Positions 36,293-53,749 of a stretch of DNA of 54,979 nt are shown here, piece by piece. The position numbers were made by a program, and so were the translations under genes. Each line of letters opens with the position of its first letter. Within the stretch, counting starts at the first letter, position 1. The notes under the pieces are model-generated. The model searched no databases, was not told the origin of the DNA, and saw only the letters and a list, made by a program, of their open reading frames with translations. The stretch is from Parvibaculum sp. (GTDB lineage: Bacteria > Pseudomonadota > Alphaproteobacteria > Parvibaculales > Parvibaculaceae). The stretch lies in assembly GCF_002684405.1 (NCBI RefSeq), contig NZ_NYVD01000129.1, positions 1 to 54,979 of the forward strand, in the 5' to 3' direction.

Positions 36293-36307
36293 CGGCAAAT
36301 ACTGCCG
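36293..36307. promoter_or_regulatory. CGGCA-N5-TGCCG palindrome upstream of flgE (FlbD/ftr-like)
   Basis: CGGCA-AATAC-TGCCG lies about 100 bp upstream of the flgE sigma-54-type promoter in the 303-bp gap between moxR and flgE. It is one of four identical-pattern sites in flagellar intergenic regions here. A partial second copy (GCCGGGCAAAGG) follows at about 36324. Confidence 0.72.
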
Positions 36308-36394
36308 GGCGGCGGGCACAGAGTGCCGGGCAAAGGGGGCGGCGGACGGTGCCGGGAATTCCACAAGTCATTGAAATTATTCAATGATAGGGCG

Positions 36395-36410
36395 TGGTCC
36401 TGTTCTTGCT
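36395..36410 (+). promoter_or_regulatory. Sigma-54-type promoter of flgE
   Basis: TGGTCC...TTGCT with the invariant GG-N10-GC spacing; the -12 half is perfect and the -24 half is imperfect (TGGTCC for TGGCAC). Transcription would start about 50 bp before flgE. Confidence 0.65.
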
Positions 36411-36472
36411 CCTTGAGGCGCAAGCCAAGTCCCGCGGCAAGAGGTCCGGGACATCAAGCATGGAGACAGGCC

Positions 36473-37828
36473 ATGAGTTTCTACGGGACGATGACCACCG
36501 CCGTTACCGGCATCCGCGCGCAGTCCAGCGCGCTGGGCAATATTTCCGACAATATCGCCAATTCGCAGACGACGGGCTTCAAGCGTACGGAAACGAGCTT
36601 CGAAGACATCGTGACCGCTTCCACCAGCCGGAACCATCTGCCGGGCGCGGTGATGGCAAAGCCGAGCTACACCAATACGGTGCAGGGCTCGATCGATGCC
36701 TCCGCGACCAAAACCCATATGGCGATCAATGGCAGCGGCTATTTCATCGTGTCTTCGCCGGTCGCGACCGTGGATGGCAAGCCGGTCTATGACGAGGTCG
36801 ACTATTACACGCGGCGCGGCGACTTCTCGCTCGACAAATATGGCTATCTGACGAACCAGTCGGGCTATTCGCTTCAGGGCCTGATGGTCGATCCGGACAC
36901 CGGCAATCCCGTCGGCGACACGCCGGGCCTGATCCAGATCAGCCGCGACTTCCTCAAGGCGCGGCCCACGGATGTGATTTCCTATGAGGCGAACCTGCCG
37001 TCCTATCCGAAGACGGCGGTGGCGGACCCGGATATCGCCAACAGCGAATTGCTGACGCCGGGCGATCTGGGCACGGCGGACCTTTCGGTCGTGCCGGCCA
37101 ACCAGGAAACCGCGTTTCTCGACCGCAGCCTGTCTGGCGGGGCGGTGACGGCCTATGACACGCTCGGCCAGCCGATCAGCGTGCAGCTTCGCTGGGCGAA
37201 GGTGGACAATGAGGCAGGCGGCGGCGACCAGTGGCAGCTCTTCTACAAGAGCGACGACAGCGCGACCGGCGCTGCCACCAAATGGACCAATGTCGGCCAG
37301 GACTACAATTTTACCGACGGCCAGATGGATCCGCCGGTCAATTCCGTCACCGTTACGGGCATGGCGGTCAATGGCGTCAGTCTGGGCGATGTGACGATCG
37401 ATCACGGCGCTGCGAGCATCACGCAGTGGGACGAGGGCAACGGCACGGTGTCGGTCAACAATCTCGACCAGACCGGCTATCCGTCCGGTTCGCTGGTGGG
37501 GATCGCGGTGGGCGACAATGGCCGTATCACCGGCACCTATTCCAACGGCAAGACGGTGGATCTGGCCGAGGTATCGCTGGCGAATTTCGGCAATGCGAAC
37601 GCGCTCAACAAGGTCGACGGCACAGCCTTCGAGGCCACGCAGGAATCGGGCGAGGCGTTCCTGACGAAGGGCGCTGAGGTGGTCGGTTCTTCGCTCGAAG
37701 CCTCGAATGTCGATCTGGCGGACGAGTTCGCCAAGCTGATCACGACGCAGCAGGCCTATACGGCGGGATCGCGCATCATTACCGCCGTCGACCAGCTCAC
37801 GCAGGAAACGCTGAACATGAAGCGCTAA
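36473..37828 (+). CDS. flgE: FlgE, flagellar hook protein
   Basis: The ATG at 36473 (site ggagacaggcc) gives 451 residues. The N-terminus SFYGTMTTAVTGIRAQSSALGNISDNIANSQTTGFKRTETSFEDIV is the rod/hook D0 helix with the NIANxxTxGFK motif, and the C-terminus LADEFAKLITTQQAYTAGSRIITAVDQLTQETLNMKR is its partner D0 helix; the middle (GDFSLDKYGYLTNQSGY) is the hook D1 domain. It polymerises into the universal joint of the flagellum. It begins a plus-strand operon with flgK and flgL and has its own enhancer-like site and sigma-54 promoter. Confidence 0.95.
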   Translation: MSFYGTMTTAVTGIRAQSSALGNISDNIANSQTTGFKRTETSFEDIVTASTSRNHLPGAVMAKPSYTNTVQGSIDASATKTHMAINGSGYFIVSSPVATVDGKPVYDEVDYYTRRGDFSLDKYGYLTNQSGYSLQGLMVDPDTGNPVGDTPGLIQISRDFLKARPTDVISYEANLPSYPKTAVADPDIANSELLTPGDLGTADLSVVPANQETAFLDRSLSGGAVTAYDTLGQPISVQLRWAKVDNEAGGGDQWQLFYKSDDSATGAATKWTNVGQDYNFTDGQMDPPVNSVTVTGMAVNGVSLGDVTIDHGAASITQWDEGNGTVSVNNLDQTGYPSGSLVGIAVGDNGRITGTYSNGKTVDLAEVSLANFGNANALNKVDGTAFEATQESGEAFLTKGAEVVGSSLEASNVDLADEFAKLITTQQAYTAGSRIITAVDQLTQETLNMKR

Positions 37829-37868
37829 GGCGCTTCATGCCGGGTCCCAGCATTAAGGGCAACAGGAT

Positions 37869-39740
37869 ATGAGCCTTACACAGGCGCTCAACGCCGCGCG
37901 CAGCGGCCTCGCCGCCAGCCAGGCCGGCATCGATGTGACGTCGCGCAATATCGCGAACGCCAATACGGTCGGCTATACGGCCAAATCCATCGATCAGACC
38001 AATCTGATCGTCGCGGGCGAAAGCCGCGGCGTGACGAGGCTGGCCGCGCAGCGTCATGTCGATGCCTTTCTGCAGCAGCAGATCCGGACGGAGAGTGCGG
38101 CAACCTCCGCGCTGACGGCCAAATCGGACATGCTGTCGCGTCTCGACCGGATGTTCGGCTCGCCGGAGTCCGAGACGTCCATCTCGGCGTCGATCGACAA
38201 GCTGGCCGCCCGGCTCTCCGATCTCATCACGAGCCCGGAAGATTCCGCCGCCCGGCTGACCTTTCTCAATCAGGCCAAGCACGTCGCGACCGACCTCAAC
38301 AGCATGTCCAAGACGGTGCAGGACCTGCGGCTGGAGGCGGAGCAGAATATCTCCGACGGCATTGCGCAGGCCAATACGCTGCTGAAAAAGGTCGCCAATC
38401 TCAACCAGCAGATTTCGCAGCGCGTGGGCAGTTCGCTTTCCGCCGCCGACCTGCAGGACCAGCGGGACCTGGCGATCAACGAATTGTCGAAGCTCATGGA
38501 CATCAAGGTCAATGAGCGCGACGACGGCACGGTGACGGTGTTCACCGGCGGCGGACAGTTGCTGCTGGACAAGACGCCGGCGGATCTCAGCTTCGACCAG
38601 CACACGCAGATCAACGCCTCATCCGTCTATGACACCGATCCGGCCAAGCGCACGGTGGGGACGGTCAGCCTCGTTTCCGGGTCGACCAGGGTCGACCTGG
38701 TGGCGGCGGGGGCATTCAAGGGCGGCTCCATCGGCGGTTATCTGGAACTGCGCGACAAGATCCTTCCCGAAGCGCAGAACCAGCTCGACGAAATCGCCAG
38801 CCAGCTCGCGCTTTCCATGTCGCAGGAAAAGGTCGACGGCGCGGCTGCGACCAGCGGCGCGGCGGCCGGCTTCGACCTCGATACGAGCGCGCTTCAGGAC
38901 GGCAATTCGATCAGCCTGACCTATGATGTCGGCGGGACGAGCCAGACGGTGACCTTCGTCTGGGTGGACGATGCGTCAGCGCTGCCGCTTTCCGATACGG
39001 ATACGGCGCAGACCGGCGACACGGTGGTGGGGATCGATTTCAACCAGCCCATGGCGGGTATCGTCGCCGACATGCAGGCGGCGCTGCCCGCCGCGGTGCA
39101 GGTGTCGAACCCGTCGGGCAATACGATCCGCATTCTGGACGACGGTGCGGCGGGCACTTCAAATATCAATTCGCTGAGTGCGACGGTGACGCCGACCTCG
39201 TTGACGGATAGCGGCACCGGGCTTGCGCTGTTCGTCGATGGCGGGCAGGGCAAGCTCTTCACGAATGCGCAAGGCGCGGTCGACCAGAAGACGGGCTTTG
39301 CCGCGCGCATTACGATCAATCCCGACGTCGTGGCCGACGACTCGCTGCTCGTGACCTATCAGACGGTGGGCGGCACGAATTCGGCGGGCGACTCCTCCCG
39401 GCCGGTCGATCTCTACAACCGGCTGACGCAGGCGGGCAGGGCATTTTCGCCGTCCACGGGGATCGGCGGCACGAGTTCTCCCTATACGGGGTCTCTCGCC
39501 TCCTTTGCGCAGCGCGTCGTCTCCTATCAGTCGACCCAGGCTTCCAACGCGAAGAACGACCTTGCCTCCCAGGAGGTCGTGTCGCAATCGCTTCAGGACC
39601 GCTTCGACAGCGAGACGGGCGTCAATGTGGATAACGAACTTTCCAGTCTTCTCGTGCTGCAAAACGCCTATTCGGCGAATGCACGGGTGATGACCACGGT
39701 CTCCCAGCTTTTCGACGTGCTTATGAGCATCGGCAGGTAA
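37869..39740 (+). CDS. flgK: FlgK, hook-associated protein 1
   Basis: This 623-residue protein has the start SLTQALNAARSGLAASQAGIDVTSRNIANANTVGYTAKS, helical FlgK-type regions (VANLNQQIS; SAADLQDQRDLAINELSKLMDIKV; VFTGGGQLLLD) and the C-terminal ELSSLLVLQNAYSANARVMTTVSQLFDVLMSIGR. It makes the junction between hook and filament. It is 40 bp after flgE and 5 bp before flgL, so it is part of the same transcript. Confidence 0.94.
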   Translation: MSLTQALNAARSGLAASQAGIDVTSRNIANANTVGYTAKSIDQTNLIVAGESRGVTRLAAQRHVDAFLQQQIRTESAATSALTAKSDMLSRLDRMFGSPESETSISASIDKLAARLSDLITSPEDSAARLTFLNQAKHVATDLNSMSKTVQDLRLEAEQNISDGIAQANTLLKKVANLNQQISQRVGSSLSAADLQDQRDLAINELSKLMDIKVNERDDGTVTVFTGGGQLLLDKTPADLSFDQHTQINASSVYDTDPAKRTVGTVSLVSGSTRVDLVAAGAFKGGSIGGYLELRDKILPEAQNQLDEIASQLALSMSQEKVDGAAATSGAAAGFDLDTSALQDGNSISLTYDVGGTSQTVTFVWVDDASALPLSDTDTAQTGDTVVGIDFNQPMAGIVADMQAALPAAVQVSNPSGNTIRILDDGAAGTSNINSLSATVTPTSLTDSGTGLALFVDGGQGKLFTNAQGAVDQKTGFAARITINPDVVADDSLLVTYQTVGGTNSAGDSSRPVDLYNRLTQAGRAFSPSTGIGGTSSPYTGSLASFAQRVVSYQSTQASNAKNDLASQEVVSQSLQDRFDSETGVNVDNELSSLLVLQNAYSANARVMTTVSQLFDVLMSIGR

Positions 39741-39745
39741 CGAAC

Positions 39746-41236: not shown

Positions 41237-41283
41237 TCCCTCGATGCATTTCCCGGGCCTGTCGTGTTCGACGGGCACCGGTC

Positions 41284-41314
41284 AAAAAAAGGGCCCTCCA
41301 TCGGGGCCCTTTTC
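41284..41314. terminator. Bidirectional terminator between flgL and flaF
   Basis: AAAAGGGCCC and GGGCCCTTTT pair around a 7-base loop; the A run and T run on either side serve both flgL and the convergent flaF. Confidence 0.86.
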
Positions 41315-41340
41315 GTTTTCGGGGAAATGAGGGGAAAGGA

Positions 41341-41721
41341 TTACGGCCGGCCGGCGAGACCGGCGGCGATGTCGCGATTGATGGAAATCAGCGGATCGAA
41401 GAGCTGCGGGCGAGGCTCGCGCTGGGCTTCGATCTCGGCTGTGCGCTTGAAGATGAACAGGGCCAGATTGGCAATGTTCTGTTTGATCTCATGGGGCAGG
41501 GGATGCTCCTTCTCCGCAGCCGAGGATGCAAAGACGGTCCAGATCTGGCGGTTGTAGAGGAGGGCGTCCTCTTCGTCGCAATAGCCTTCCTGCCAGGCGT
41601 CCTTTGCGCGTTGAAGTCTGCCCGCGGCCTTGGTCAGCAATTCCGCTTCGAACGAGCGTGGATCGCTGGAATTTACTGCTCGACGGTTTGCCGCGGCGTA
41701 GGCTTCATGTGCTTGAGACAT
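41341..41721 (-). CDS. flaF: FlaF, flagellin secretion/biosynthesis regulator
   Basis: This 126-residue protein matches FlaF in length and sequence: AHEAYAAANRRAVNSSDPRSFEAELLTKAAGRL, then EEDALLYNRQIWTVFASSAAE and LPHEIKQNIANLALFIFKRT. In Caulobacter FlaF is needed for flagellin translation and export and opposes FlbT. The gene overlaps flbT by 17 bases, so the antagonistic pair is made in fixed ratio. Confidence 0.93.
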   Translation of the reverse strand: MSQAHEAYAAANRRAVNSSDPRSFEAELLTKAAGRLQRAKDAWQEGYCDEEDALLYNRQIWTVFASSAAEKEHPLPHEIKQNIANLALFIFKRTAEIEAQREPRPQLFDPLISINRDIAAGLAGRP

Positions 41722-42097
41722 TCCCCAATAGCTCCCCTTCGTACCCGATCAGCTTTCGAGCTGCCTTGAGAGCTTTATACATTTCGCCGGTTAATATTTT
41801 GCTGTTCACGTCGTCGATATAGGCGCGCGTACTCGGCGCGGCCTCCAGCACCTGCTTGACCAGATCGAAGTACATATCGTGGTGCTGGCGGGGGTCCGGC
41901 GAGAGATACATCATCTGCACGACGAGATAGATCTTCTTGCAGGGCGTATCCGCCTCGTCGAGCCGAAGAATGTCCTTTTCGCGGAGGATCGGCGTCGTTC
42001 CCTCGATGAAGAGGCGGGTCCGCTGGTCGTCATTGGTGATGACGCTGTCGCCCAGAATAAAACGCTCGCCCGGCTTCAATTCCACCTTCAAGGCCAT
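41705..42097 (-). CDS. flbT: FlbT, post-transcriptional repressor of flagellin
   Basis: This 130-residue protein has the FlbT opening ALKVELKPGERFILGDSVITNDDQRTRLFIEGTTPILREKDIL and the central PCKKIYLVVQMMYLSPDP. FlbT binds flagellin mRNA leaders in Caulobacter and destabilises them before hook completion. The 271 bp upstream (42098-42368) holds the flagellin terminator and a CCGGCAAACC half-palindrome; I see no confident promoter there. Confidence 0.94.
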   Translation of the reverse strand: MALKVELKPGERFILGDSVITNDDQRTRLFIEGTTPILREKDILRLDEADTPCKKIYLVVQMMYLSPDPRQHHDMYFDLVKQVLEAAPSTRAYIDDVNSKILTGEMYKALKAARKLIGYEGELLGNVSST

Positions 42098-42291
42098 GTC
42101 GCACTGTCCTTCCTGTGTCGTGAAAGTCTGGCCGACGGGATCGTCGCCAGGGGCACGTCACATGTTTTCAGTCAGTGTCCTATCCGCAGGAACGGCCCCG
42201 TTCCCAAGGGGATAGAACATGGTCGCGGCATTGCTGCCTGCCCGAATCACCCGGGGCAGTATACGCCCATGGTTTGCCGGCTGAAATCCAA

Positions 42292-42320
42292 CAAAAAAGA
42301 CGGGGGCCGAAGCCCCCGTC
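42292..42320 (-). terminator. Terminator of the downstream flagellin gene
   Basis: GACGGGGGC and GCCCCCGTC pair around CCGAA-type bases and, read on the minus strand, are followed by six T. It is 49 bp past the flagellin stop. Confidence 0.87.
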
Positions 42321-42368
42321 CAATACTCGATACCGTACTCCGTACTAAAACCGGTACCCGGCCTCCCC

Positions 42369-43487: not shown

Positions 43488-43556
43488 TTTAGATTTCCTT
43501 TCCTAGGAATGATCGTCAAAAGCTCGTCCTGAGCTCTGAATGGACGATAGGGGCGG

Positions 43557-43571
43557 GCCTCTTAAGAGCCA
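43557..43571 (-). promoter_or_regulatory. Weak sigma-54-type promoter of flagellin B
   Basis: On the minus strand TGGCTC...AGGC has GG-N10-GC spacing about 70 bp before the start codon, but the core falls in a perfect GGCCTCTTAAGAGCC-like palindrome, which may instead be an operator. Confidence 0.35.
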
Positions 43572-43602
43572 GTAAACAGAATTGCGATTTCAGTCGTGGA
43601 CA

Positions 43603-43630
43603 CAAAAAAAGCGGGGCACGAGGCCCCGCC
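43603..43630 (-). terminator. Terminator of flagellin A
   Basis: GCGGGGC and GCCCCGC pair around ACGAG; on the minus strand a run of seven T follows. It is 26 bp past the flagellin A stop. Confidence 0.87.
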
Positions 43631-43655
43631 TGATTTCGTCGTGGTAATTTTCGGG

Positions 43656-44852
43656 TTAACCGAAGAGGCGCAGCACACCCTGTTCGGCCTGGTTGGCCAG
43701 CGAGAGCGCCGTGGTGCCCAACTGCTGGCGCGTCTGAAGGGCGAGCAGCTTGGCGCCTTCTTCATTCGTGTCGGCCAGCGTCAGGTTGGAGGCGCCGGTC
43801 TGCAGCGTGTCCACGAGGTTCTTGGTGAAGTCCTGGCGGATTTCCACCACACCCAGATTGCCGCCGAAGGTGGAGGCCTGCTGGCGCAGAACATCCGTGG
43901 TGGAGTTCAGGCCATTGATCAGATCACTGATGTTGCTGTCGGACTCGAATTCGTGATTGCCGTCCGATGCGCCAACCGTGGAGATGTTCAGAAGACCGTC
44001 CGGCGTCAGCTGGACGCCCTGAATATCCATCTTGCTGCTCTGATCTTCATTGAAGAAGACGCTCAGCATATCGCCCTTGAGCAGGTTGACGCCCTTATAG
44101 CTCGCATCGTCCGCCAACTGCTTGATCTGGTCGCGCAGATTGTTGAAGTCCGTTTCGTATTTGTCGCGGTTCACGCCGTTGGACGAGGACGTCTTCGTGC
44201 CGAGCAGTTTGGAGAGCGCGGTATTGTCGGCGGAGTCCGTCGTGACGGCGACCGCGCGGCCCGAGGCGGCTTCCAGATGAATCTGGCCGTCCTCGATGGA
44301 GGCGGTGACGCCTTCGCCGGTCAGGTCGCCACCCGCATCGGTGTTGATCGCATCGACAAGCGCCTTGATGTCGCTCGAGGCGGTAATGGCGTAGTCGAAA
44401 GTCTTTTCGCCGACCGTGAGCGTGATCGTTTCACCGGAGGTGAAGCCGCGGGATGTATCGGTCAGCGTGTTGGTCGCGCCGGACGCCGTGGTGCCGGTGC
44501 CGACGACATCGGTGGATGCCTTGCCGGTCAGCGTGGTCGCGCTGATCTTGGTTTCCAGCGCCTGGTTCGCCGTCGCCTTCAGGCTTTCGACAAGTTTCTG
44601 GATCGATGTGATGCCCTGATCGGCGGCCTTCAGCGTCTGAATGGATTGCCCCATGCTATCGAGCAGGGTGTTCAGATCGGAGGCGCGGTTGTTCAGGCCC
44701 TGTGCCGTGAAATAGGCGGTCGGGTTGTCGATCGCGCTATTCACCTTCAGGCCGGTCGAGAGACGAAGGTTCGTCTCCGAAAGCATCTTCTGCGTGTTCT
44801 GCATGCTGAGCAGATTGGAGCGGATCGCTCCGGAAAGAACCACATCAGCCAT
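43656..44852 (-). CDS. Flagellin, copy A
   Basis: This 398-residue flagellin has ADVVLSGAIRSNLLSMQNTQKMLSETNLRLSTGLKVNSAIDNPTAYFTAQGLNNRASDL and a C-terminus TFGGNLGVVEIRQDFTKNLVDTL, LADTNEEGAKLLALQTRQQLGTTALSLANQAEQGVLRLFG. I prefer ATG 44852 because gagg lies nine bases upstream; ATG 44858 is too close. A long leader of about 160 nt follows a good sigma-54-type promoter at 45027, and a GCCGGCAAAACC half-palindrome lies just before the ribosome site, in the region where FlbT would act on the mRNA. Confidence 0.95.
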   Translation of the reverse strand: MADVVLSGAIRSNLLSMQNTQKMLSETNLRLSTGLKVNSAIDNPTAYFTAQGLNNRASDLNTLLDSMGQSIQTLKAADQGITSIQKLVESLKATANQALETKISATTLTGKASTDVVGTGTTASGATNTLTDTSRGFTSGETITLTVGEKTFDYAITASSDIKALVDAINTDAGGDLTGEGVTASIEDGQIHLEAASGRAVAVTTDSADNTALSKLLGTKTSSSNGVNRDKYETDFNNLRDQIKQLADDASYKGVNLLKGDMLSVFFNEDQSSKMDIQGVQLTPDGLLNISTVGASDGNHEFESDSNISDLINGLNSTTDVLRQQASTFGGNLGVVEIRQDFTKNLVDTLQTGASNLTLADTNEEGAKLLALQTRQQLGTTALSLANQAEQGVLRLFG

Positions 44853-45026
44853 TGTCATCTACCTCTAGGGTTTTGCCGGCTCGTCGTATCATCACGGCAC
44901 AGCGGCTATACTCGGAATTAATGCTTAATTCAGCGTAAACGGATCTGGATCTTTCCTTCTCCGCTGTGGCTTCTCACGCTTCCGAGCGCCAGATTCCACG
45001 CCGCGTCACTACTGGCATGCTATATC

Positions 45027-45041
45027 GCACAAGCCGTGCCA
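45027..45041 (-). promoter_or_regulatory. Sigma-54-type promoter of flagellin A
   Basis: On the minus strand TGGCACG-GCTT-GTGC: perfect -24 element, GG-N10-GC spacing, near-perfect -12. It lies in the 298-bp gene-free stretch 44853-45150. Confidence 0.72.
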
Positions 45042-45116
45042 TATCCATTTTTTCAATAAAAACAATCGGTTGAGTGTTTTTGAGGGCCCCGTGGGCGGCA
45101 ATTGATGCGCGGCCCG

Positions 45117-45131
45117 CGGCAAAGTTTGCCG
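45117..45131. promoter_or_regulatory. CGGCA-N5-TGCCG palindrome upstream of flagellin A (FlbD/ftr-like)
   Basis: CGGCA-AAGTT-TGCCG is centred about 97 bp upstream of the -12 element of the flagellin promoter; GTCGGCAGG directly after it may be a second half-site. Confidence 0.72.
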
Positions 45132-45150
45132 GTCGGCAGGCAGGAAATGC

Positions 45151-46788
45151 TCAGCCGATCAGGCGCTTTGCCGCTTCCTGGCGGAACAGGGAAACCAGGG
45201 CCTCGCGGTCCCAGAAGGGCGCCTGAGGGTAAACGGTGAGGGAGGGATACCAGGGCAGGCTGCCCGTGCCGAGCTGGTTGGCATTCTCGATCGGGGCGAA
45301 GACGAGGGCGTTGGCTCCCAGCGCGCCGGCCATTTCGGTCGCCGCGTTCCATGATCCGACCGTGAGATCGAGTTCGCACAGAAGCGCGGCCACGCCTTCA
45401 AGGTCGTCATGGGTGTCGAGACCCGGCATTTCGTGGATCGTGATGCCGAGTTCCTGCCTTGCTTTGGCGAGCTCTTCCTCGGGTTTCGAATATTGAAGGC
45501 TCACAATGTCGAAGCGGTCGTCGTCCAGAAGCGGCTTCCAGTCGGAAAGCTGCGTGGCATAGAGATCGCGCAGCGCGTTCGAGATACCCGAGCGCCAGGT
45601 GATGCCGATCTTGGGCCGCGGCCCCAGAGAAGAGAGCCATTCGCGCGCCCGGGCCCGTTTTTCGGGGCAGGCGACGAGCCGGGGCGGGTTTTTCGGGAAT
45701 GCGTCCAGGCTGCGGCGAAGATGAATGGACGGCATGGCGGCCGGCGCGGTGAGGTCGAAATCGATGTCGCCGTAATTTTCAAAGCCCGATGCAAGGCGCG
45801 TTTCGGCCCGCACCGTCGCGCCGGGCCATGTGCGCTGGTAGAGCGGCACCACGCGCGGATCGGTTTCGATGATGACATGGCCCGCGCGCTCCACGATGTC
45901 GTGATAGACGGTGGAAAAGCGGAAATCGTCGCCCAACCCCTGTTCGCGCCAGAGGAAAATCGTCTTGTCTGCGAGGTCTTCGTCTTTCCAGATGAGACCG
46001 GGGAAGGGGCGCAGCGGCGTGCGCGTGCCGGATTCGAAACCGTAGCCGTAAAGATCCCAGCCATTCTCTATATCGCCGGTGGCGAGCAGGGCGAGGGCGA
46101 GGTTCCAGAGGATTTTGGCATTGTGAGGCGTGACGGACAGCGCCTGCTGATAAAGCTGGATCGCCTCTTGCGTGCGTCCGGCGTTCTGAAGCATCGAGCC
46201 CAGGTTGACGGCGGCCTGGATCAGGTCCGGCTTCAGCATCAGGGCGCGCCGATAGCAGGCCTCCGACTCGTCGAACATGGCGGCATTGGCCAGATAGCGA
46301 CCAAGATTGCTGTAAGCCTCGGCATTGTCGGGAAACATCTCGATGACTTCCGAGACGAGATCGACCGCGGCCTGCGTTTCGCCGCGCTCGTCGAGGATCG
46401 AGGCGAGGTTGATCCGCGCAGACGCGATCCGCGGCTCCTTGCGCATCAGTTTGCGATAGATCTCTTCGGCGCGTTTCTTCTCGCCGCATTCGGCAAAGGC
46501 GAGGGCGACCTCGAACTGTTTCTGCAGGTCCTGTCCGGCACGCCGGGATGCCTTTTCGAGGTGTTTGCAGGCTTCTTCGGTCTCATCGAGCAGGGTCAGG
46601 GCCTGCGCCATGACGAGGCGTGCCTGATGCGTGTCGGGCTTCTCGGCCAGCACGGCATCCAGATACTGGATGGCCTTCAGCGGGTCGCAGGCCTTTACCG
46701 CGTCCGCTGCCAGATCCAGCTTTTGCCGGAGGCTGGTTGCCTCGATGGAAATTACCGGATCCGTTGCGATTTCGATTTCGAACGCCAT
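45151..46788 (-). CDS. TPR-glycosyltransferase, FlmG-like (flagellin glycosylation)
   Basis: From ATG 46788 (gagggtgggc upstream) this is 545 residues. Residues about 25-240 are tandem TPRs (DPLKAIQYLDAVLAEKPDTHQARLVMAQAL; AYSNLGRYLANAAMFDESEACYRRALMLKPD). Residues 260-545 form a GT-B-like domain (LWREQGLGDDFRFSTVYHDIV, PKIGITWRSGISNALRD, EGVAALLCELDLTVGSWNAATEMAGALGANALVF). Caulobacter FlmG, formerly FlbA, has TPRs that bind flagellin and a glycosyltransferase domain that adds pseudaminic acid. Position next to two flagellin genes supports that role. The sugar-nucleotide pathway is not in this window. Confidence 0.85.
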   Translation of the reverse strand: MAFEIEIATDPVISIEATSLRQKLDLAADAVKACDPLKAIQYLDAVLAEKPDTHQARLVMAQALTLLDETEEACKHLEKASRRAGQDLQKQFEVALAFAECGEKKRAEEIYRKLMRKEPRIASARINLASILDERGETQAAVDLVSEVIEMFPDNAEAYSNLGRYLANAAMFDESEACYRRALMLKPDLIQAAVNLGSMLQNAGRTQEAIQLYQQALSVTPHNAKILWNLALALLATGDIENGWDLYGYGFESGTRTPLRPFPGLIWKDEDLADKTIFLWREQGLGDDFRFSTVYHDIVERAGHVIIETDPRVVPLYQRTWPGATVRAETRLASGFENYGDIDFDLTAPAAMPSIHLRRSLDAFPKNPPRLVACPEKRARAREWLSSLGPRPKIGITWRSGISNALRDLYATQLSDWKPLLDDDRFDIVSLQYSKPEEELAKARQELGITIHEMPGLDTHDDLEGVAALLCELDLTVGSWNAATEMAGALGANALVFAPIENANQLGTGSLPWYPSLTVYPQAPFWDREALVSLFRQEAAKRLIG

Positions 46789-46852
46789 GCCCACCCTCGT
46801 TCAATCCGGCCGACGCCGGTGCCCAACGCCATGGAAAATGGCCGAAACTTGG

Positions 46853-46867
46853 TTAGCGCATGGTTAA
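46853..46867. promoter_or_regulatory. CtrA-type box upstream of the FlmG-like gene
   Basis: On the minus strand TTAACCAT-GCG-CTAACC: the 8-mer TTAACCAT plus the TTAA-N7-CTAA form of the CtrA motif, 65 bp before the start codon. Confidence 0.6.
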
Positions 46868-46882
46868 GCCCGGTCGGGCGGA

Positions 46883-47347: not shown

Positions 47348-47673
47348 TGGTGTTGCTCCTGAAGCTTGATGATTTCCGAATAGACGGTGTCGGCAAGGCC
47401 GATGCCGCCGGATTTGGTCATTTCCTGGCTGTACTGGTCCACCAGCAGGGAGCGGAACATTTCCTCGCCCTGTCCGCCGCCGAATGTCTCGTCCGTTTTC
47501 ACGCCCTTGAACATCGACTGGAACATGCTGGAGAGGAACTGGGACTCGAAGTCCTGCGCCGCAGCCCAGGCTTTCGGGTCCTTGCCCTGCGGTGTGTTGG
47601 CGGCGTGCTGCGCGCCGCCGACATGCACATAGGCGGACTGGAAGGCGCCGGAGGGAAGGGCGGTCATGTCCAT
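47344..47673 (-). CDS. Rod-binding protein (FlgJ N-terminal domain only)
   Basis: The 109-residue protein from ATG 47673 contains the Rod-binding domain: AAQDFESQFLSSMFQSMFKGVKTDETFGGGQGEEMFRSLLVDQYSQEMTKSGGIGLADTVYSEIIK. The muramidase half of E. coli FlgJ is absent, as usual in alphaproteobacteria, so a separate hydrolase must open the murein. The start overlaps the flgI stop (TGATG); a GTG one codon earlier is an alternative. Confidence 0.9.
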   Translation of the reverse strand: MDMTALPSGAFQSAYVHVGGAQHAANTPQGKDPKAWAAAQDFESQFLSSMFQSMFKGVKTDETFGGGQGEEMFRSLLVDQYSQEMTKSGGIGLADTVYSEIIKLQEQHQ

Positions 47674-48809
47674 CACATCACCTCGATTTCGGCCTGCAGC
47701 GCGCCGGCGGATTTGATCGCCTGCAGAATGGTGATCATGTCGCGCGGGCTGACACCCAGCGCATTGAGCCCGTCCACCAGCTCGGCAAGGGAGATCGAGC
47801 CGTCGAGGATGCCGAGCTTGCGGTCTTTCTGCTCGTCCACCTGCACATTGGTGCGCGGCACGACGACGGTCTGGCCCTTGTTGGCGAAGGGGTTGGGCTG
47901 GCTGACCTGCGGCGTTTCCTGCACGGAGATCGTCAGATTGCCCTGGGCGATGGCCACGCGGCTGACACGCACGTCCTGACCCATAACGATGACGCCGGAG
48001 CTTTCGTCGATCACGACACGCGCGGGCGCATCGGGCTCGACACGGAGCTGCTCGATTTCGGTCAGCAGGCCGACCACGTCGTCGCGGAATTTCGGCGGAA
48101 TCCTGAGGTCGATGGTGGTGGGGTTGTCGGCCTTGGCCGCATCCCCGCCAAGATAGGCATTGATGGCGGCGGAAACGCGCTGGGCGGTCGTCAGGTCCGG
48201 ATTGCGCAGCGCCAGGCGCAGCGTCTTCATATCCGACAGCTTGAAATCGATTTCCTTTTCGACGATGGCGCCATTGGCGATACGGCCATTGGTGGGCACG
48301 CCGCGCACCACGGAGGCCGCCTGGCCCTGCGCGGCAAAGCCGCCGGTGGCGAGCGATCCTTGCGCGACGGCATAGACCTGACCGTCGGCGCCCATGAGCG
48401 GGGTCACCAGCAGGACGCCGCCCTGCAGATTGGTGGCATCGCCAAGGGCGCTGACCGTCACGTCGATGCGGGTGCCCTGCGGCGCGAAGGGCGGCAGGTT
48501 TGCCGACACCATCACGGCGGCCACATTGTCGGTCTTGAGCGCGGTGCCGCGCGTGTTGACGCCGAGCCGTTCGAGCATGCCGATCAGGCTTTGCTGGGTG
48601 AAGGGAGCGTTGCGCAGCGTGTCGCCGGTGCCGTTGAGGCCGACAACGAGGCCGTAACCGACCAGCATGTTGTCGCGAATACCTTCCACATCGACGATGT
48701 CCTTGATGCGCGAGGCGCCCTGCGCCGGCATGACGATCATGGCCAGCAGGCAGGCAAGGGCGGCAAAAGCCGCGGCAATGCGATGGGAAGAAAAGAGAAT
48801 GCGGAACAT
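47673..48809 (-). CDS. flgI: FlgI, flagellar P-ring protein
   Basis: ATG 48809 gives 378 residues with a signal peptide (IAAAFAALACLLAMIVMPAQGA). The mature protein shows the FlgI signatures ASRIKDIVDVEGIRDNMLVGYGLVVGLNGTGD, VSALGDATNLQGGVLLVTPL, and near the C-terminus SISLAELVDGLNALGVSPRDMITILQAIKSAGALQAEIEV. It forms the periplasmic ring around the rod. The open frame extends to 48869, but that start would overlie the sigma-54 promoter. The operon continues into the rod-binding and FlgN-like genes with overlapping codons. Confidence 0.96.
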   Translation of the reverse strand: MFRILFSSHRIAAAFAALACLLAMIVMPAQGASRIKDIVDVEGIRDNMLVGYGLVVGLNGTGDTLRNAPFTQQSLIGMLERLGVNTRGTALKTDNVAAVMVSANLPPFAPQGTRIDVTVSALGDATNLQGGVLLVTPLMGADGQVYAVAQGSLATGGFAAQGQAASVVRGVPTNGRIANGAIVEKEIDFKLSDMKTLRLALRNPDLTTAQRVSAAINAYLGGDAAKADNPTTIDLRIPPKFRDDVVGLLTEIEQLRVEPDAPARVVIDESSGVIVMGQDVRVSRVAIAQGNLTISVQETPQVSQPNPFANKGQTVVVPRTNVQVDEQKDRKLGILDGSISLAELVDGLNALGVSPRDMITILQAIKSAGALQAEIEVM

Positions 48810-48852
48810 GAGAGGGGGTACTCGTTTTTCGCCAGCGATCCTGCCCCTATCT

Positions 48853-48868
48853 AGCGAATGCCGTGCCA
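48853..48868 (-). promoter_or_regulatory. Sigma-54-type promoter of the flgI operon
   Basis: On the minus strand TGGCACG-GCAT-TCGCT: perfect -24, GG-N10-GC spacing, one mismatch in TTGC. Transcription would start about 32 bp before flgI. Confidence 0.72.
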
Positions 48869-48988
48869 AAGCCGATCAGGGCTTCCAGCGTTCTGTAAGC
48901 TGTTGAATTTACTCGCTTTCGATGGCGGGCGCCGCATAGCGCAGGGCGGGCCCCGCGGTGCCGGGCGGCAGCGCTTTCCGGCCTCAGG

Positions 48989-49003
48989 CGGCAAAAACTG
49001 CCG
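48989..49003. promoter_or_regulatory. CGGCA-N5-TGCCG palindrome between flgI and fliX (FlbD/ftr-like)
   Basis: CGGCA-AAAAC-TGCCG lies about 130 bp upstream of the flgI -24 element and only 16 bp from the CtrA-type box of fliX, so a protein bound here could activate flgI and affect fliX. Confidence 0.72.
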
Positions 49004-49018
49004 GGAGAGGGGGCGGAT

Positions 49019-49033
49019 TTAACCCCGCCTTAA
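49019..49033. promoter_or_regulatory. CtrA-type box upstream of fliX
   Basis: TTAA-CCCCGCC-TTAA is an exact TTAA-N7-TTAA match, 58 bp before the fliX start codon, where it would overlap a -35 region. fliX is CtrA-controlled in Caulobacter. Confidence 0.68.
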
Positions 49034-49090
49034 GCCTCGCGATCCATTCTCCATAGTCATAAAGCGCATGGGTGAGCGCAGTTGGGGGCC

Positions 49091-49531
49091 ATGATGAAAA
49101 TCGGGCAGACAAAGAGCACATCGGGAACGCAAGGCAAGCGATCCGCCGGTTCGGCGGCGTCGGGCGCGGGTTCCAGCTTTTCCATCGGCGAAACAGGGCA
49201 GGCGCGCGCAAGCGCGGGCCTGAGTGCGCCGGCATCGATCGGCGCGGTCGATGCGCTGCTGGCTCTTCAGGGAGCCGAGGCGGCGGATGATGCGCTGGGC
49301 GCACCGCGCCGCGCCATGGAACGCGCAGAGGACATGCTCGATATTCTGGATCAGGTGAAGATCGACCTGCTCTCGGGCAAGATGCCGGTCAACCGGCTGA
49401 CCCGTCTTCTGGGCGTGGTCGGGCGCAAGAGGGGCCATGTGGCCGATCCGAACCTCCAGGACGTTCTCGACCAGATCGAGCTTCGGGCGCGGGTGGAACT
49501 GGCCAAATTCGGCAATTATCCCGAAAACTGA
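49091..49531 (+). CDS. fliX: FliX, flagellar assembly checkpoint regulator
   Basis: This 146-residue protein has a Ser/Gly/Ala-rich N-terminus and the conserved FliX helical C-terminus: SIGAVDALLALQGAEAADDAL, RRAMERAEDMLDILDQVKIDLLSGKMPVNRLTRLLGVV, NLQDVLDQIELRARVELAKF. In Caulobacter FliX couples early flagellar assembly to activity of FlbD, the sigma-54 activator. The divergent arrangement with flgI is the Caulobacter arrangement. ATG at 49091 follows gttgggggcc; a second ATG at 49094 is possible. Confidence 0.93.
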   Translation: MMKIGQTKSTSGTQGKRSAGSAASGAGSSFSIGETGQARASAGLSAPASIGAVDALLALQGAEAADDALGAPRRAMERAEDMLDILDQVKIDLLSGKMPVNRLTRLLGVVGRKRGHVADPNLQDVLDQIELRARVELAKFGNYPEN

Positions 49532-49631
49532 GCTGATTTTGCTGCTTTTTGCGGCAATTTGGCCTTTTGCCAAGTCATTGCGTCAGTTGAATTTTCACGG
49601 ATATTTCATCGGCGAATCGCTGACTGCGCAG

Positions 49632-49660
49632 TTGAGAATCGTAGGGTCTCTCCATATACT
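49632..49660 (+). promoter_or_regulatory. Sigma-70 promoter of dksA
   Basis: TTGAGA and TATACT are separated by 17 bp, each one or two bases from consensus, about 40 bp before the dksA start. Confidence 0.68.
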
Positions 49661-49704
49661 CCGCCGCGCTTGGTTAGGGCTCGTTTGAGGGAGTGACCGT
49701 CGGT

Positions 49705-50121
49705 ATGGCAGTGCGTTTACCCAAAGGCTATACGCCATCGGACGATGAGCCGTTTATGAACAAACGGCAGAAGGAATATTTCCGTCTCAAGCTGGAGAAG
49801 TGGAAAGACGACATCCTGAAGGAAAATCGCGAGACGCTGCAGCACCTTCAGGACGATTCTTCCAACCATCCGGATATCGCGGACCGCGCCTCGAGCGAAA
49901 CGGAACGCTCGCTCGAACTGCGGACGCGCGACCGGCAGCGCAAGCTGATCTCCAAGATCGATGCGGCGCTGCGCCGGCTCGAGGACGGAACCTACGGATA
50001 TTGCGAGGAGACGGGTGAGCCGATCAGCCTGAAGCGGCTGGACGCGCGCCCCATCGCCACCTTGTCGATCGAGGCGCAGGAACGCCACGAGCGGCGGGAA
50101 AAGGTCTATCGCGACGACTGA
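49705..50121 (+). CDS. dksA: DksA-type RNA polymerase-binding factor, one-cysteine form
   Basis: This 138-residue protein starts at ATG 49705. It has the coiled-coil secondary-channel arm (KRQKEYFRLKLEKWKDDILKENRETLQHLQDD), with the acidic tip residues in SNHPDIADRASSETE, and the globular part YGYCEETGEPISLKRLDARPIATLSIEAQERHERREK. The four zinc cysteines of E. coli DksA are reduced to one (CEET ... ATLS), the known alphaproteobacterial form. It modulates rRNA and other promoters with ppGpp. It lies inside the flagellar cluster but has its own promoter and terminator. Confidence 0.94.
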   Translation: MAVRLPKGYTPSDDEPFMNKRQKEYFRLKLEKWKDDILKENRETLQHLQDDSSNHPDIADRASSETERSLELRTRDRQRKLISKIDAALRRLEDGTYGYCEETGEPISLKRLDARPIATLSIEAQERHERREKVYRDD

Positions 50122-50147
50122 TTGCGGTCGGCGAAACCGGACGAAAG

Positions 50148-50180
50148 AACGCGGCCCCCGCATGGAGGGCCGCGTTTTTT
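50148..50180 (+). terminator. Terminator of dksA
   Basis: AACGCGGCCC and GGGCCGCGTT pair around nine bases and are followed by further T; 26 bp after the stop. Confidence 0.87.
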
Positions 50181-50218
50181 ATTGGGTAAGGTTGCCTGTC
50201 GGATGCGCCGGGTGATCC

Positions 50219-50971
50219 TTAGAAGGGCATCAGGATGTCGTAGAGCTGCTGGCCGTAGCGCGGCTGCTGCACATCGGTGATCTGGCCGCGGCCGCCATAG
50301 GAAATCCGGGCCTCGGCGATCTGGGTGTGTTCGATGGTGTTGGTGTTGGAGATATCCTCCGGCCGCACCACGCCCTGAACGGTGAGTTCGCGCACCTCGT
50401 TGTTCACGCGCACTTCCTGACGGCCCGCAATGACGAGATTGCCGTTGGGCAGCGTCTGGGTCACGACCGCGGCGATGGTGAGGGCGATGGATTCCTTGCG
50501 GTTGACGGAGCCGGAACCGGCGCTGGAGCTCTTGCTGCCGGCGCCGACCAGTTTCGTCGGGTCCACGGCGTCGGGCAGGACGTGCTTCAGATTGCTTTCC
50601 AGGCCCATGAAATTGCTGAGATTGGCGTCTTCGGAATTGTCGCGGCTGCGCTTGGAGGTGTTGTCCACCTTGGCGCTGTCGGCAATGTCGATCTTGACGG
50701 TGAGAATGTCGCCCACGCGGCTGGCGCGCTGATCGCGGAAGAAGGCGCGGGAGCCGGAGCGCCAGAGCGAATTGGGCTGATAGGTGATCTTTTCCGGCTG
50801 CGGCATGGGCATGCCCACGCGCTGGTTTACCTCGGCGGTCAACCCCGCGCCGACCGGCGCGAGGGCAGGGGCCTGGCCGATATTCTCGATGCGGTCCACG
50901 GCGCTGCAGCCGGCAAGCAGGGCGCCGAGCAGGGCGAAGGCGGAGAATTTGACGAGAGAACGCGGGATCAT
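50219..50971 (-). CDS. flgH: FlgH, flagellar L-ring lipoprotein
   Basis: This 250-residue precursor has a lipoprotein signal (LLGALLAGC, lipobox LAGC) and the FlgH body: SLWRSGSRAFFRDQRASRVGDILTVKIDI, then NLVIAGRQEVRVNNEVRELTVQGVVRPEDISNTNTI and the closing ARISYGGRGQITDVQQPRYGQQLYDILMPF. It forms the outer-membrane ring. It is the last gene of the minus-strand flgF-flgG-flgA-flgH operon, 49 bp after flgA. Confidence 0.96.
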   Translation of the reverse strand: MIPRSLVKFSAFALLGALLAGCSAVDRIENIGQAPALAPVGAGLTAEVNQRVGMPMPQPEKITYQPNSLWRSGSRAFFRDQRASRVGDILTVKIDIADSAKVDNTSKRSRDNSEDANLSNFMGLESNLKHVLPDAVDPTKLVGAGSKSSSAGSGSVNRKESIALTIAAVVTQTLPNGNLVIAGRQEVRVNNEVRELTVQGVVRPEDISNTNTIEHTQIAEARISYGGRGQITDVQQPRYGQQLYDILMPF

Positions 50972-51020
50972 GGAAACAACCTTTAACTTTGGGTCCGGTG
51001 CCGAATGTTAATCGCGGAGA

Positions 51021-52019
51021 TCAGCCCTTGGCCGCGCCGCCGCCAAGCGATGCCTGGGCGGGGGAGGATGCGTCGATGCTGATCGTGTTCGGCGCGGATA
51101 CCGTGCCTTCGATGGTGCGGTTGGAACGGATATTCATGATACGGACGACATCGCCGATGGCGCCGTCTTCAAGCGCGCGGCCGCGGGCGGTGAGCGTCAG
51201 GGCGCCGGTCTTGTAGATGACGTCCACCTGCGAGCCCTTGCTGACGAGGACGGGCGGCTCCATGTCGGACAGGCGCAGCGGCACGCCCGCGCGCACCGGG
51301 CGGCGCGGCGACATGCCCTTGAGCTGGTTTTCGGCGCCGATGATGTTGCCGGCGACGCGGCTGGCGGGGAGCTTCACCCATTCGATGTCGCGGGCTCTCA
51401 CGACCTCGCCCGGCGTCATGTCGCGCGACAGCACGGGCACGTCGCGCACCGGATAGGCGCGGCCGGACACGCGGCGCAGCGGGGCGAGCGCATCGTCGGC
51501 GGGCGCGCGGATGGCGGCGGCGAAGGTGCCGTTTCGGTTGTTCCAGGCAAGCTGTTCGACCTTTACCGTGAGGGGCGCGCCGTCCGCCACCTGGATGCCG
51601 GACAGGCCTTGCGCGAAATCCACCTGAAGGGAAGACGGGTCGCTGAGCGAGGGCGAGCGCGCCGTTACGGCGTTGGCGATGGAAGCGGCGATTTCGGTTT
51701 CGGGCACCTGAACGCCTGCGCGGGCGATCACGACATGGGTGAGGCCTGCATGATTGTGCCAGTCGATACCGTTGCGCCGCGCGGCAAGCGAAATGCGCGA
51801 GACGGAAAGCTGACCGGCAAGACCGGGCGCGGGTGCCTGGGCGATGACGACATCGGCAGCCTGGCCCGCATCGTCGAAGAGATCGCCCAGCGTCACCACA
51901 TCCTGCGACACGGTGACGGCGGGATGAAGCTCGGCGGCGGCAAGCGGCGCGGCGCCGCCCGCGACAAGCAGAAGGCCGAGCGCGACGGTGCGACAGGAGG
52001 CGAGAAGAGTGCGGATCAT
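51021..52019 (-). CDS. flgA: FlgA, P-ring assembly chaperone
   Basis: The 332-residue precursor has a signal peptide (VALGLLLVAGGAAPLAAA) and a C-terminal SAF/FlgA domain: VLSRDMTPGEVVRARDIEWVKLPASR, RRPVRAGVPLRLSDMEPPVLVSKGSQVDVIYKTGALTLTARGRALEDGAIGDVVRI. At over 300 residues it is longer than E. coli FlgA (219), with an extra N-terminal domain (ELHPAVTVSQDVVTLGDLFDDAG) usual in alphaproteobacteria. FlgA helps FlgI assemble around the rod. Confidence 0.93.
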   Translation of the reverse strand: MIRTLLASCRTVALGLLLVAGGAAPLAAAELHPAVTVSQDVVTLGDLFDDAGQAADVVIAQAPAPGLAGQLSVSRISLAARRNGIDWHNHAGLTHVVIARAGVQVPETEIAASIANAVTARSPSLSDPSSLQVDFAQGLSGIQVADGAPLTVKVEQLAWNNRNGTFAAAIRAPADDALAPLRRVSGRAYPVRDVPVLSRDMTPGEVVRARDIEWVKLPASRVAGNIIGAENQLKGMSPRRPVRAGVPLRLSDMEPPVLVSKGSQVDVIYKTGALTLTARGRALEDGAIGDVVRIMNIRSNRTIEGTVSAPNTISIDASSPAQASLGGGAAKG

Positions 52020-52031
52020 CGGTCTCGCTCC

Positions 52032-52817
52032 TTACTTCACGTTGGAGGTGACGGACATCATTTCGTCCGAGGCGGAGATGATCTTGGCGTTCATCTCATA
52101 GGCGCGCTGGGCGGTGATGAGCGAGGTGATTTCGTTCACCGCGTTCACATTCGAGGTTTCCAGAAAGCGCTGCTGCAGCGAGCCGAAACCGGTGTCGTCG
52201 GGATTGCCCAGCGTTGCGGCGCCGCTTGCCGTGGTTTCCTGGAAGAGATTGTTGCCCATCGGGTCGAGGCCGGACTCGTTCTGGAAGGTGGCGAGTTCCA
52301 GCGTGCCGACGATCTGCGGATCGGTCTGGCCGGGGATCTTGGCCTGGACCTGTCCGTCGCTGGAAATGGTGACGTCGGTCGCGTCCTGCGGGATGGTGAT
52401 GCCGGGGGCCACGGTGTAGCCGTCGGCGGTCACGATCTGCCCGTCGGGGGAAAGCTGGAAAGAGCCCGCGCGGGTATAGGCGTCTTCGCCGCTGGGCATC
52501 TGCACATGGAAGAAGCCGCGGCCCTGAATGGCGACGTCGAGATCGTTCCCGGTGTTCTGGTAGCCGCCCTGCGACATGATGCGGTAGACGGAGCCCGTTT
52601 TCACGCCGAGGCCGACCTGAATGCCGGCGGGCACCACCGTGCCGCTGTCCGACGAGTTGGTGCCGACGCGGCGCAGGTTCTGGTAGAGCAGGTCCTGAAA
52701 CTCGGCGCGCTGACGCTTGAAGCCCGTGGTGCTCATATTCGCGATGTTGTTCGAGATGACCTCGACGTTGAGCTGCTGGGCCATCATGCCGGTGGCTGCG
52801 ATGCTGAGGGACTGCAT
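52032..52817 (-). CDS. flgG: FlgG, distal rod protein
   Basis: This 261-residue protein has MQSLSIAATGMMAQQLNVEVISNNIANMSTTGFKRQRAEFQDLLYQNLRRVG, the characteristic distal-rod lead, GDLDVAIQGRGFF-like text (GNDLDVAIQGRGFFHVQM) and the C-terminus FLETSNVNAVNEITSLITAQRAYEMNAKIISASDEMMSVTSNVK. Length equals that of enteric FlgG. It is 38 bp downstream of flgF and 12 bp before flgA. Confidence 0.97.
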   Translation of the reverse strand: MQSLSIAATGMMAQQLNVEVISNNIANMSTTGFKRQRAEFQDLLYQNLRRVGTNSSDSGTVVPAGIQVGLGVKTGSVYRIMSQGGYQNTGNDLDVAIQGRGFFHVQMPSGEDAYTRAGSFQLSPDGQIVTADGYTVAPGITIPQDATDVTISSDGQVQAKIPGQTDPQIVGTLELATFQNESGLDPMGNNLFQETTASGAATLGNPDDTGFGSLQQRFLETSNVNAVNEITSLITAQRAYEMNAKIISASDEMMSVTSNVK

Positions 52818-52855
52818 GTTCTAGATCCTCTTTCTCAAAATTCCGCGGCGGCGCT

Positions 52856-53587
52856 TCAGGCGGCCTGGCCGAGTTTGGATATGGCGTCGCGGCGCATCTG
52901 GTCGGCGCTGTCGACGAGTTTCTGGGCACTCGCATAGGAGCGGGTGACATCGATCATGTTCGTCATCTGGAGGATGGCGTTGACGTTGGAGCCTTCCAGC
53001 GCGCCCTGCACGACATGCGGCTTTTCGACGGGCACTTCCGCCTGGTCGGTGGTGTAGAGCGTGCCGCCCGCGGCCTTCAGCAGGCGTTCATTGTCGAATT
53101 CGACGAGGCCGAGCTTGCCGCGCTGTCCCTGATCGGTCGAAATCGTGCCGTCGCGCGCGATGGAGATGTCCTCTTCGTCGGGGCGGAAGGTGATGACCGA
53201 GCCATTGTCGTCGAGCACGGGATTGCCGGAGACATCGACAAGCCGTCCCTGCGCATCGAGCGAGAAATGGCCGTTGCGGGTGTAGCGGATGCCTGCATCG
53301 GTCTGGACCTTGAAATAGCCCTTGCCGGAAATGGCGGCGTCCATCGGGTTGCCGGTCGGTTCCAGCTTGCCGTCGGCCAGATCGCGGTTGAGGCCGATAT
53401 CCTGGACGAAGGAGAGCGACTTGTCGGGGGCATCCTCGGTCGCGACCGGCATGACGTATTCGTCGAACAGCATGGATTCCGACTTGTAGCCATTGGTGTT
53501 CATGTTCGCGAGGTTGTTCGCGATGATGGACATGTTCCGTTGCATGGCCATCTGTCTCGACAATCCGATGAGCAGTGCGTTTTCCAT
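52856..53587 (-). CDS. flgF: FlgF, proximal rod protein
   Basis: This 243-residue protein begins MENALLIGLSRQMAMQRNMSIIANNLANMNTNGYKSES, contains AISGKGYFKVQTDAGIRYTRNGHFSLDAQGRLVDVSGNPVL, and ends ALEGSNVNAILQMTNMIDVTRSYASAQKLVDSADQMRRDAISKLGQ. It is the proximal rod component and first gene of the operon, with a sigma-54-type promoter about 60 bp upstream. Confidence 0.95.
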   Translation of the reverse strand: MENALLIGLSRQMAMQRNMSIIANNLANMNTNGYKSESMLFDEYVMPVATEDAPDKSLSFVQDIGLNRDLADGKLEPTGNPMDAAISGKGYFKVQTDAGIRYTRNGHFSLDAQGRLVDVSGNPVLDDNGSVITFRPDEEDISIARDGTISTDQGQRGKLGLVEFDNERLLKAAGGTLYTTDQAEVPVEKPHVVQGALEGSNVNAILQMTNMIDVTRSYASAQKLVDSADQMRRDAISKLGQAA

Positions 53588-53643
53588 GGTGCAGTCGTCC
53601 TAGGGTGGCTGTCCGGTTTTCGCTTCGATCCCGGACTTCCATG

Positions 53644-53659
53644 TGCAGGCGCTGTGCCA
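53644..53659 (-). promoter_or_regulatory. Sigma-54-type promoter of the flgF operon
   Basis: On the minus strand TGGCACA-GCGC-CTGCA: perfect TGGCAC, GG-N10-GC spacing, near-perfect -12. It is within the 331-bp gene-free stretch 53588-53918 shared with fliL. Confidence 0.75.
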
Positions 53660-53734
53660 GACAGATAACTCAATGAAATCAGTGGCTTGGGTTTTTCGTA
53701 CCGGCGGCGGGATTTGCTTGAGGAAGGCTTTACC

Positions 53735-53749
53735 CGGCAATATCTGCCG
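53735..53749. promoter_or_regulatory. CGGCA-N5-TGCCG palindrome between flgF and fliL (FlbD/ftr-like)
   Basis: CGGCA-ATATC-TGCCG is centred about 97 bp upstream of the flgF -12 element. Further towards fliL a GTTAAC at 53830-53835 could be a CtrA half-site for fliL, but no full TTAA-N7-TTAA is present there. Confidence 0.72.

Follow-up and report, generated by a model that had tools for sequence, protein, structure and literature searches.

The question raised by this locus is whether the short palindromes in front of several flagellar genes in Parvibaculum are operators for the regulator FlbD and, if so, which genes they would switch on and which off. The window (the whole stretch of DNA that was analysed, 54,979 bases) contains exactly four exact matches to CGGCA-N5-TGCCG, at positions 36293, 45117, 48989 and 53735. 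These are the four sites named by the original prediction, and there are no others. Its rough estimate that such a pattern would be rare by chance is also borne out: the mean of shuffled sequences is 0.22 matches, the largest shuffle gives 2, and 0 of 100 shuffles reach four or more. Gene identities in the list that follows are from NCBIfam and Pfam matches, several NCBIfam equivalog models matching below their own cut-offs.

36293..36307, no strand: FlbD-type palindrome CGGCAAATACTGCCG, upstream of flgE (exact motif match)
36315..36327, no strand: second palindrome GGCACAGAGTGCC, 21 bp on, GGCA start to start (sequence; also in the sister genome)
36364..36376, reverse strand: IHF-like site, flgE (one mismatch)
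36395..36409, forward strand: predicted sigma-54 promoter of flgE, TGGTCCTGTTCTTGC (sequence; counterpart in 13/13 congener loci)
36473..37828, forward strand: flgE, hook protein (FlgEFG subfamily model above its cut-off; FlgE equivalog models below theirs)
45117..45131, no strand: FlbD-type palindrome CGGCAAAGTTTGCCG, upstream of flagellin A (exact motif match)
45060..45075, no strand: two overlapping IHF-like sites, flagellin A (one mismatch each)
45027..45041, reverse strand: predicted sigma-54 promoter of flagellin A, TGGCACGGCTTGTGC (sequence; 16/17 congener loci)
43656..44858, reverse strand: flagellin A (NCBIfam/Pfam)
48989..49003, no strand: FlbD-type palindrome CGGCAAAAACTGCCG, between flgI and fliX (exact motif match)
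49019..49033, no strand: perfect CtrA-type box TTAACCCCGCCTTAA, fliX side (sequence; perfect box in 23/23 same-genus loci)
48896..48908, reverse strand: IHF-like site, flgI (one mismatch)
48854..48868, reverse strand: predicted sigma-54 promoter of flgI, TGGCACGGCATTCGC (sequence; 23/23 same-genus loci)
47673..48809, reverse strand: flgI, P-ring protein (NCBIfam; start chosen by eye)
49091..49531, forward strand: fliX, regulator of FlbD in Caulobacter (PF10768, 137.3 bits against a cut-off of 25)
53735..53749, no strand: FlbD-type palindrome CGGCAATATCTGCCG, between flgF and fliL (exact motif match)
53677..53689, forward strand: IHF-like site, flgF (one mismatch)
53645..53659, reverse strand: predicted sigma-54 promoter of flgF, TGGCACAGCGCCTGC (sequence; 24/24 same-genus loci)
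52856..53587, reverse strand: flgF, rod protein (NCBIfam)

At all four sites there is, as had been proposed, a GG-N10-GC promoter directed at flgE, flagellin A, flgI or flgF; the measured distances, 84–129 bp, are somewhat shorter than the proposed 95–140 bp. From the palindrome centre to the GG of the −24 element the distance is 96 bp at flgE, 84 bp at flagellin A, 129 bp at flgI and 84 bp at flgF, values in keeping with a Caulobacter-type FlbD regulon, in which some 100 bp separate the FlbD site from the promoter downstream of it. A putative IHF-like site with one mismatch is found between palindrome and promoter in all four cases. IHF-like is defined here as at most one mismatch to WATCAANNNNTTR, which we take to be the IHF consensus. 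Among relatives' spacers that hold both elements, an IHF-like site is present in 26/26 at flgI and 20/26 at flgF, where mononucleotide shuffles, a control that does not allow for A/T clustering, give an expectation of 0.8 and 1.3.

The favoured reading, with a probability of about 0.9, is that the palindromes are FlbD operators (ftr-type, CGGCA-RWWWY-TGCCG) through which late genes are switched on and early CtrA-type promoters are most likely blocked. The functional part of this reading, in which FlbD binds the sites, activates and represses promoters and is controlled by FliX, is modelled on Caulobacter. FlbD would be held back and then activated by FliX after the MS ring and export apparatus have been built. 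It would bind the palindromes, IHF would bend the DNA between palindrome and promoter, and FlbD would then contact sigma-54 polymerase at the promoters of the late genes (flgE, flagellin A, flgI, flgF and fliK-flgD). The palindrome adjoins a CtrA box at the early promoters of CtrA type, namely those of fliF, of flgB/fliP and on the fliX side of the flgI region. The most likely action of FlbD at these places is to block the promoter that CtrA activates, and the operon running from fliF to flbD itself would be among those blocked. One protein would thus close the early genes and open the late ones together.

Directly observed are the sequence elements, how they are spaced and conserved, and the genes for FlbD, FliX, RpoN and CtrA. 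An FlbD homologue, whose absence would have counted against the proposal, is present; in this genome it is seen only as fragments, split over two contig ends. Its N-terminal part (NF050807 positions 1–146, 230 bits) is at the end of contig C103, after fliF, fliG, an unassigned gene and fliN, and its C-terminal part (NF050807 positions 229–452, 369 bits) is at the start of contig C151, before flhA. Both fragments score below the equivalog cut-off of 750 bits, while the intact FlbD proteins of four relatives score 790–820 bits; relatives have an unbroken flbD gene encoding the GAFTGA motif (seen in four). FliX, with the Pfam match listed above, falls below cut-off in the NCBIfam FliX equivalog models (best 142.8 against 153). 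RpoN is encoded (PF04552, 238.5 bits), and predicted sigma-54 promoters are found at class III/IV genes. CtrA and ChpT are also encoded, by genes on C151 that are less than 7 kb away from flbD (L023:6171-7649, near flbD-flhA and a fliI gene). FlbD, FliX, RpoN and the IHF-like sites complete the Caulobacter arrangement, which supports the FlbD-type regulon that had been suggested.

The arrangement is conserved in relatives. Counts were made with the 13-mer GGCA-N5-TGCC (exact matches), and the reversed motif served as control. Among same-genus loci, own genome included, the 13-mer is found upstream of flgI in 22/23, of flgF in 23/24, of fliF in 21/22 and of flgB in 12/23; the control is found in 0, 0, 1 and 0, respectively. 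Two further counts are from 18 congener stretches. Upstream of flgE the 13-mer is present in 12 of the 13 loci holding the flgE start (five stretches, with a truncated flgE or a paralogue as best match, were left out), and upstream of flagellin A in 11/17 (one stretch had no match, and in another the best match is the second flagellin). At a control position inside the flgE operon, upstream of flgK, it is present in 0/15 congener loci.

The same is seen at greater phylogenetic distance. Across 80 named flgI loci, 64 have the 13-mer, 1 has the reversed control and 73 have a predicted sigma-54 promoter; one of the 16 that lack the 13-mer has only 20 bp of upstream sequence. Other spacers of 0–11 bp in place of 5 occur in 1–9 of the 80. 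Eight of the 12 named flgI loci without FliX on the same stretch still have the 13-mer. A survey of 288 genomes of the class, own genome left out, shows CGGCAAANNNTGCCG at 416 places against 170 for the control in the 154 genomes with a FliX match, and at 148 places against 91 in the 134 genomes without one, an excess that is smaller but not absent. Within the order, motif places outnumber control places in 39/40 genomes.

Spacing is also conserved. The centre-to-GG distance at flgF is 84–85 bp in all 23 same-genus loci that have both elements, and at flgI it is 93–94, 114–116 or 125–129 bp (22 same-genus loci), distance classes to be expected of steps of one DNA turn. In named loci the distance from FlbD site to promoter clusters with a period near 10.5–11 (R 0.59–0.65), but the species are related and do not count as independent; the helical-phasing signal becomes weak (R 0.38–0.46) when every distance is entered a single time. 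The FlbD-CtrA distances given below likewise come from related, non-independent species.

The ten bases of CGGCA-N5-TGCCG had been offered as a sharper consensus, together with a scan of the genome for enrichment. In the own genome (3.42 Mb, 184 contigs) they occur at 34 places and the reversed control at 25, a modest excess, and the bare pattern is therefore weak evidence; unspecific when taken alone, it is rejected as a consensus as it stands. Three further perfect places are flagellar: C103:4583 (upstream of fliF), C103:7578 (in front of fliK-flgD, where a separate TGGC...TTGC element is present) and C183:4265 (between flgB and fliP, a small gene preceding fliP). The rod gene is called flgB from FlgB models that match only below cut-off, and it has no Pfam family at 1e-5.

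A refined motif is specific. In a matrix of 72 exact GGCA-N5-TGCC sites upstream of flgI, all from other, named genomes, the outer C/G is present in 77%, and the centre, for which the search did not ask, reads R-W-W-W-Y in 94, 76, 86, 76 and 94%. CGGCA-RWWWY-TGCCG has six exact places in the own genome, and all six are at flagellar promoters; this result is not a blind one, since RWWWY was written after the relatives' matrix and the own sites had been seen. A spread over unrelated regions is not seen for the refined motif. The seventh flagellar site (45117) is one base off the refined motif. Allowing one mismatch gives 25 places against 16 for the control and was rejected as a source of further targets. 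Only two of the 19 inexact places are flagellar (45117 in the window and C183:4179), and of the 17 others, 15 are in predicted coding regions, one of these 15 (L290) perhaps lying ahead of the true start.

There are 27 non-flagellar places with the bare pattern. Fourteen were inspected; eight are in regions predicted as coding by a crude gene finder, and five of the other six belong, as copies or close variants, to a single interspersed palindromic repeat. This repeat carries CGGCA-ACGAG-TGCCG (or ACAAG) and is found in the own genome at L003:212, L004:1501, L005:1501, L007:1501 and L014:1501. It is part of the genome's bare-pattern background.

The early promoters show a different layout. The full CtrA motif is given as TTAA-N7-TTAA (PMC4287350). 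A perfect box is present in 23/23 same-genus loci both in the flgI/fliX region, where the window has it at a distance of 30 bp from the palindrome (49019 against 48989), and at flgB. A predicted FlbD-type site is present at the class II fliF promoter, as in the Caulobacter regulon. The order at fliF is CGGCA-N5-TGCCG, 21 bp, a TTAA-N7-TTTA box, 23–24 bp, and an imperfect copy of the palindrome beginning CGGTA. The 21-bp spacing is found in 21/22 same-genus loci, and so is the imperfect copy, with 2 or 3 mismatches; the CtrA-like box has one mismatch to the CtrA consensus and is perfect in 0/22. A TGGCAY sigma-54 promoter was not found at fliF (0/22) or flgB (0/23) in same-genus loci. The region upstream of flgB (L025:4101-4428, on C183) has two conserved CtrA-like boxes, each adjoining an FlbD site or half-site. 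With these boxes conserved and a TGGCAY promoter missing from 23 same-genus loci, flgB may belong to the early genes here. The layout at early promoters fits direct repression of early genes as late ones turn on. The FlbD of Caulobacter is an activator of late genes and, acting through ftr4, a repressor of fliF (PMC3930126, PMC3096577).

Three other explanations have to be weighed against FlbD operators with a dual role. An origin of the palindromes by chance or as copies of an interspersed repeat might be suggested by the inspected non-flagellar places, at least 5/14 of which put the bare pattern inside the repeat and 8/14 in predicted coding regions. The repeat, however, centres on ACGAG or ACAAG and not on RWWWY, and the flagellar sites keep their position across species; this conservation refutes the reading, which can be dismissed for practical purposes. 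It is very improbable, too, that the sites belong to another sigma-54 activator. Three proteins besides the FlbD fragment do match Sigma54_activat strongly (one on C145, two on C125), but the sites are at flagellar operons, flbD is in a flagellar operon whose promoter carries one of them, and fliX adjoins another.

A less remote explanation, still an unlikely one, is that FlbD binds all sites purely as a sigma-54 activator and that nearness to CtrA boxes has no regulatory role. The single flgI/fliX palindrome can indeed serve the sigma-54 promoter alone. At fliF, however, where the TGGCAY promoter is lacking, the palindrome and its imperfect copy nevertheless flank the CtrA-like box at fixed spacing, and in Caulobacter without FliX, fliF-lacZ is reported to go up and fliK-lacZ down (PMC3096577). 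The dual role of FlbD is preferred. A broader form of it is put forward tentatively, at somewhat less than even odds: a composite FlbD-CtrA element, present at flagellar promoters in many alphaproteobacteria with steps of about one DNA turn, may be the switch at the centre of the flagellar hierarchy. FlbD bound beside CtrA, and at fliF also on the conserved imperfect second operator just downstream, would shut early promoters (among them those of its own operon and of fliX) at the same time as it opens the sigma-54 promoters.

Half-sites in the leaders of flagellin A and flbT had been suggested as extra or repressive sites.

44869-44880, reverse strand: half-site in the flagellin A leader (sequence)
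42271-42281, reverse strand: half-site in the flbT leader (sequence)

Both exist, but among 18 congener stretches they are shared only by the sister genome (G019), which goes against the suggestion. The GCCGGCAAA(A)CC half-sites were rejected as extra FlbD sites: the flagellin A form occurs in 1/33 congener flagellin leaders, one belonging to the sister genome, and most others read GGGCCAAACCC or similar at this position; the flbT form, common to the sister genome only, was rejected as well.

Both flagellin leaders have a TTTA-N7-TTAA (CtrA-like) box (44925-44939 and 43562-43576, reverse strand), and such a box is found at most 110 nt from the start in 31/33 congener flagellin leaders. Flagellin A would therefore have a CtrA-type promoter in addition to the FlbD/sigma-54 one. 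No FlbD palindrome is present in the 400 bp upstream of flagellin B. Conserved blocks surround the ribosome-binding site of the leaders (44859-44885 and 43488-43530, reverse strand). The flagellin A block is ACCCTGGAGGGT-like in most relatives, and the flagellin B block has GGCTC-N5-GAGCC followed by TTCCTAGGAAAGGA. FlbT, whose gene is at 41705-42097, could act on these blocks. The folding energies of the leaders are not clearly better than those of shuffles (z 0.51, −1.18, 0.19 and −1.02).

Taken as a whole, this is a Caulobacter-type FlbD/FliX regulon in a bacterium other than Caulobacter, nothing out of the ordinary but with very good support. Judged by published descriptions of the C. crescentus regulon, it shares with it FlbD, FliX, RpoN, the putative IHF-like sites, the site at fliF, and palindromes that precede the sigma-54 promoters of genes for rod, ring, hook and flagellin. 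PMC12421884 credits Fumeaux et al. with identifying FlbD sites in promoters of Caulobacter. The 21-bp spacing at fliF and the proximal CtrA-like box in flagellin leaders are seen here. FlbD is tied to flagellar synthesis in Bradyrhizobium diazoefficiens by a 2021 title (cited in PMC9977809), and FlbD mutants of Rhodospirillum centenum lack polar flagella (unpublished results cited in PMC2890560); these brief accounts describe no binding site. CtrA-activated flagellar promoters have the same TTAA-N7-TTAA boxes as fliX and flgB, but here the boxes are paired with FlbD-type palindromes. The fla2 promoters of R. sphaeroides differ in being, according to PMC6180460, CtrA-controlled without FlbD. 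No description of the palindrome or of an FlbD-CtrA spacing rule was found in the titles and abstract openings searched, a negative that proves little because most primary FlbD papers are outside that literature.

Added to the known system are the geometry, with the palindrome beside a CtrA box at early promoters, and a usable refined motif. CGGCA-RWWWY-TGCCG, spaced from a sigma-54 promoter or CtrA box, is a compact searchable signature for FlbD targets in many alphaproteobacteria, including Bradyrhizobium, Azospirillum and Rhodopseudomonas. With a fixed FlbD-CtrA spacing, the way in which FlbD turns off early genes becomes directly testable with a few promoter mutants.

The nearest FlgI among the matches listed, where very near records may be absent, is that of the metagenome-assembled HGW-Alphaproteobacteria-3 (83% identity). 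A 547-residue TPR-repeat protein is encoded between flagellin A and flgI (45151-46794, reverse strand); the domain search matched no glycosyltransferase domain in it. FlmG, the flagellin glycosyltransferase of Caulobacter, also starts with TPR repeats (PMC7591256). A DksA-type gene follows fliX at 49693-50121 (forward strand; Pfam).
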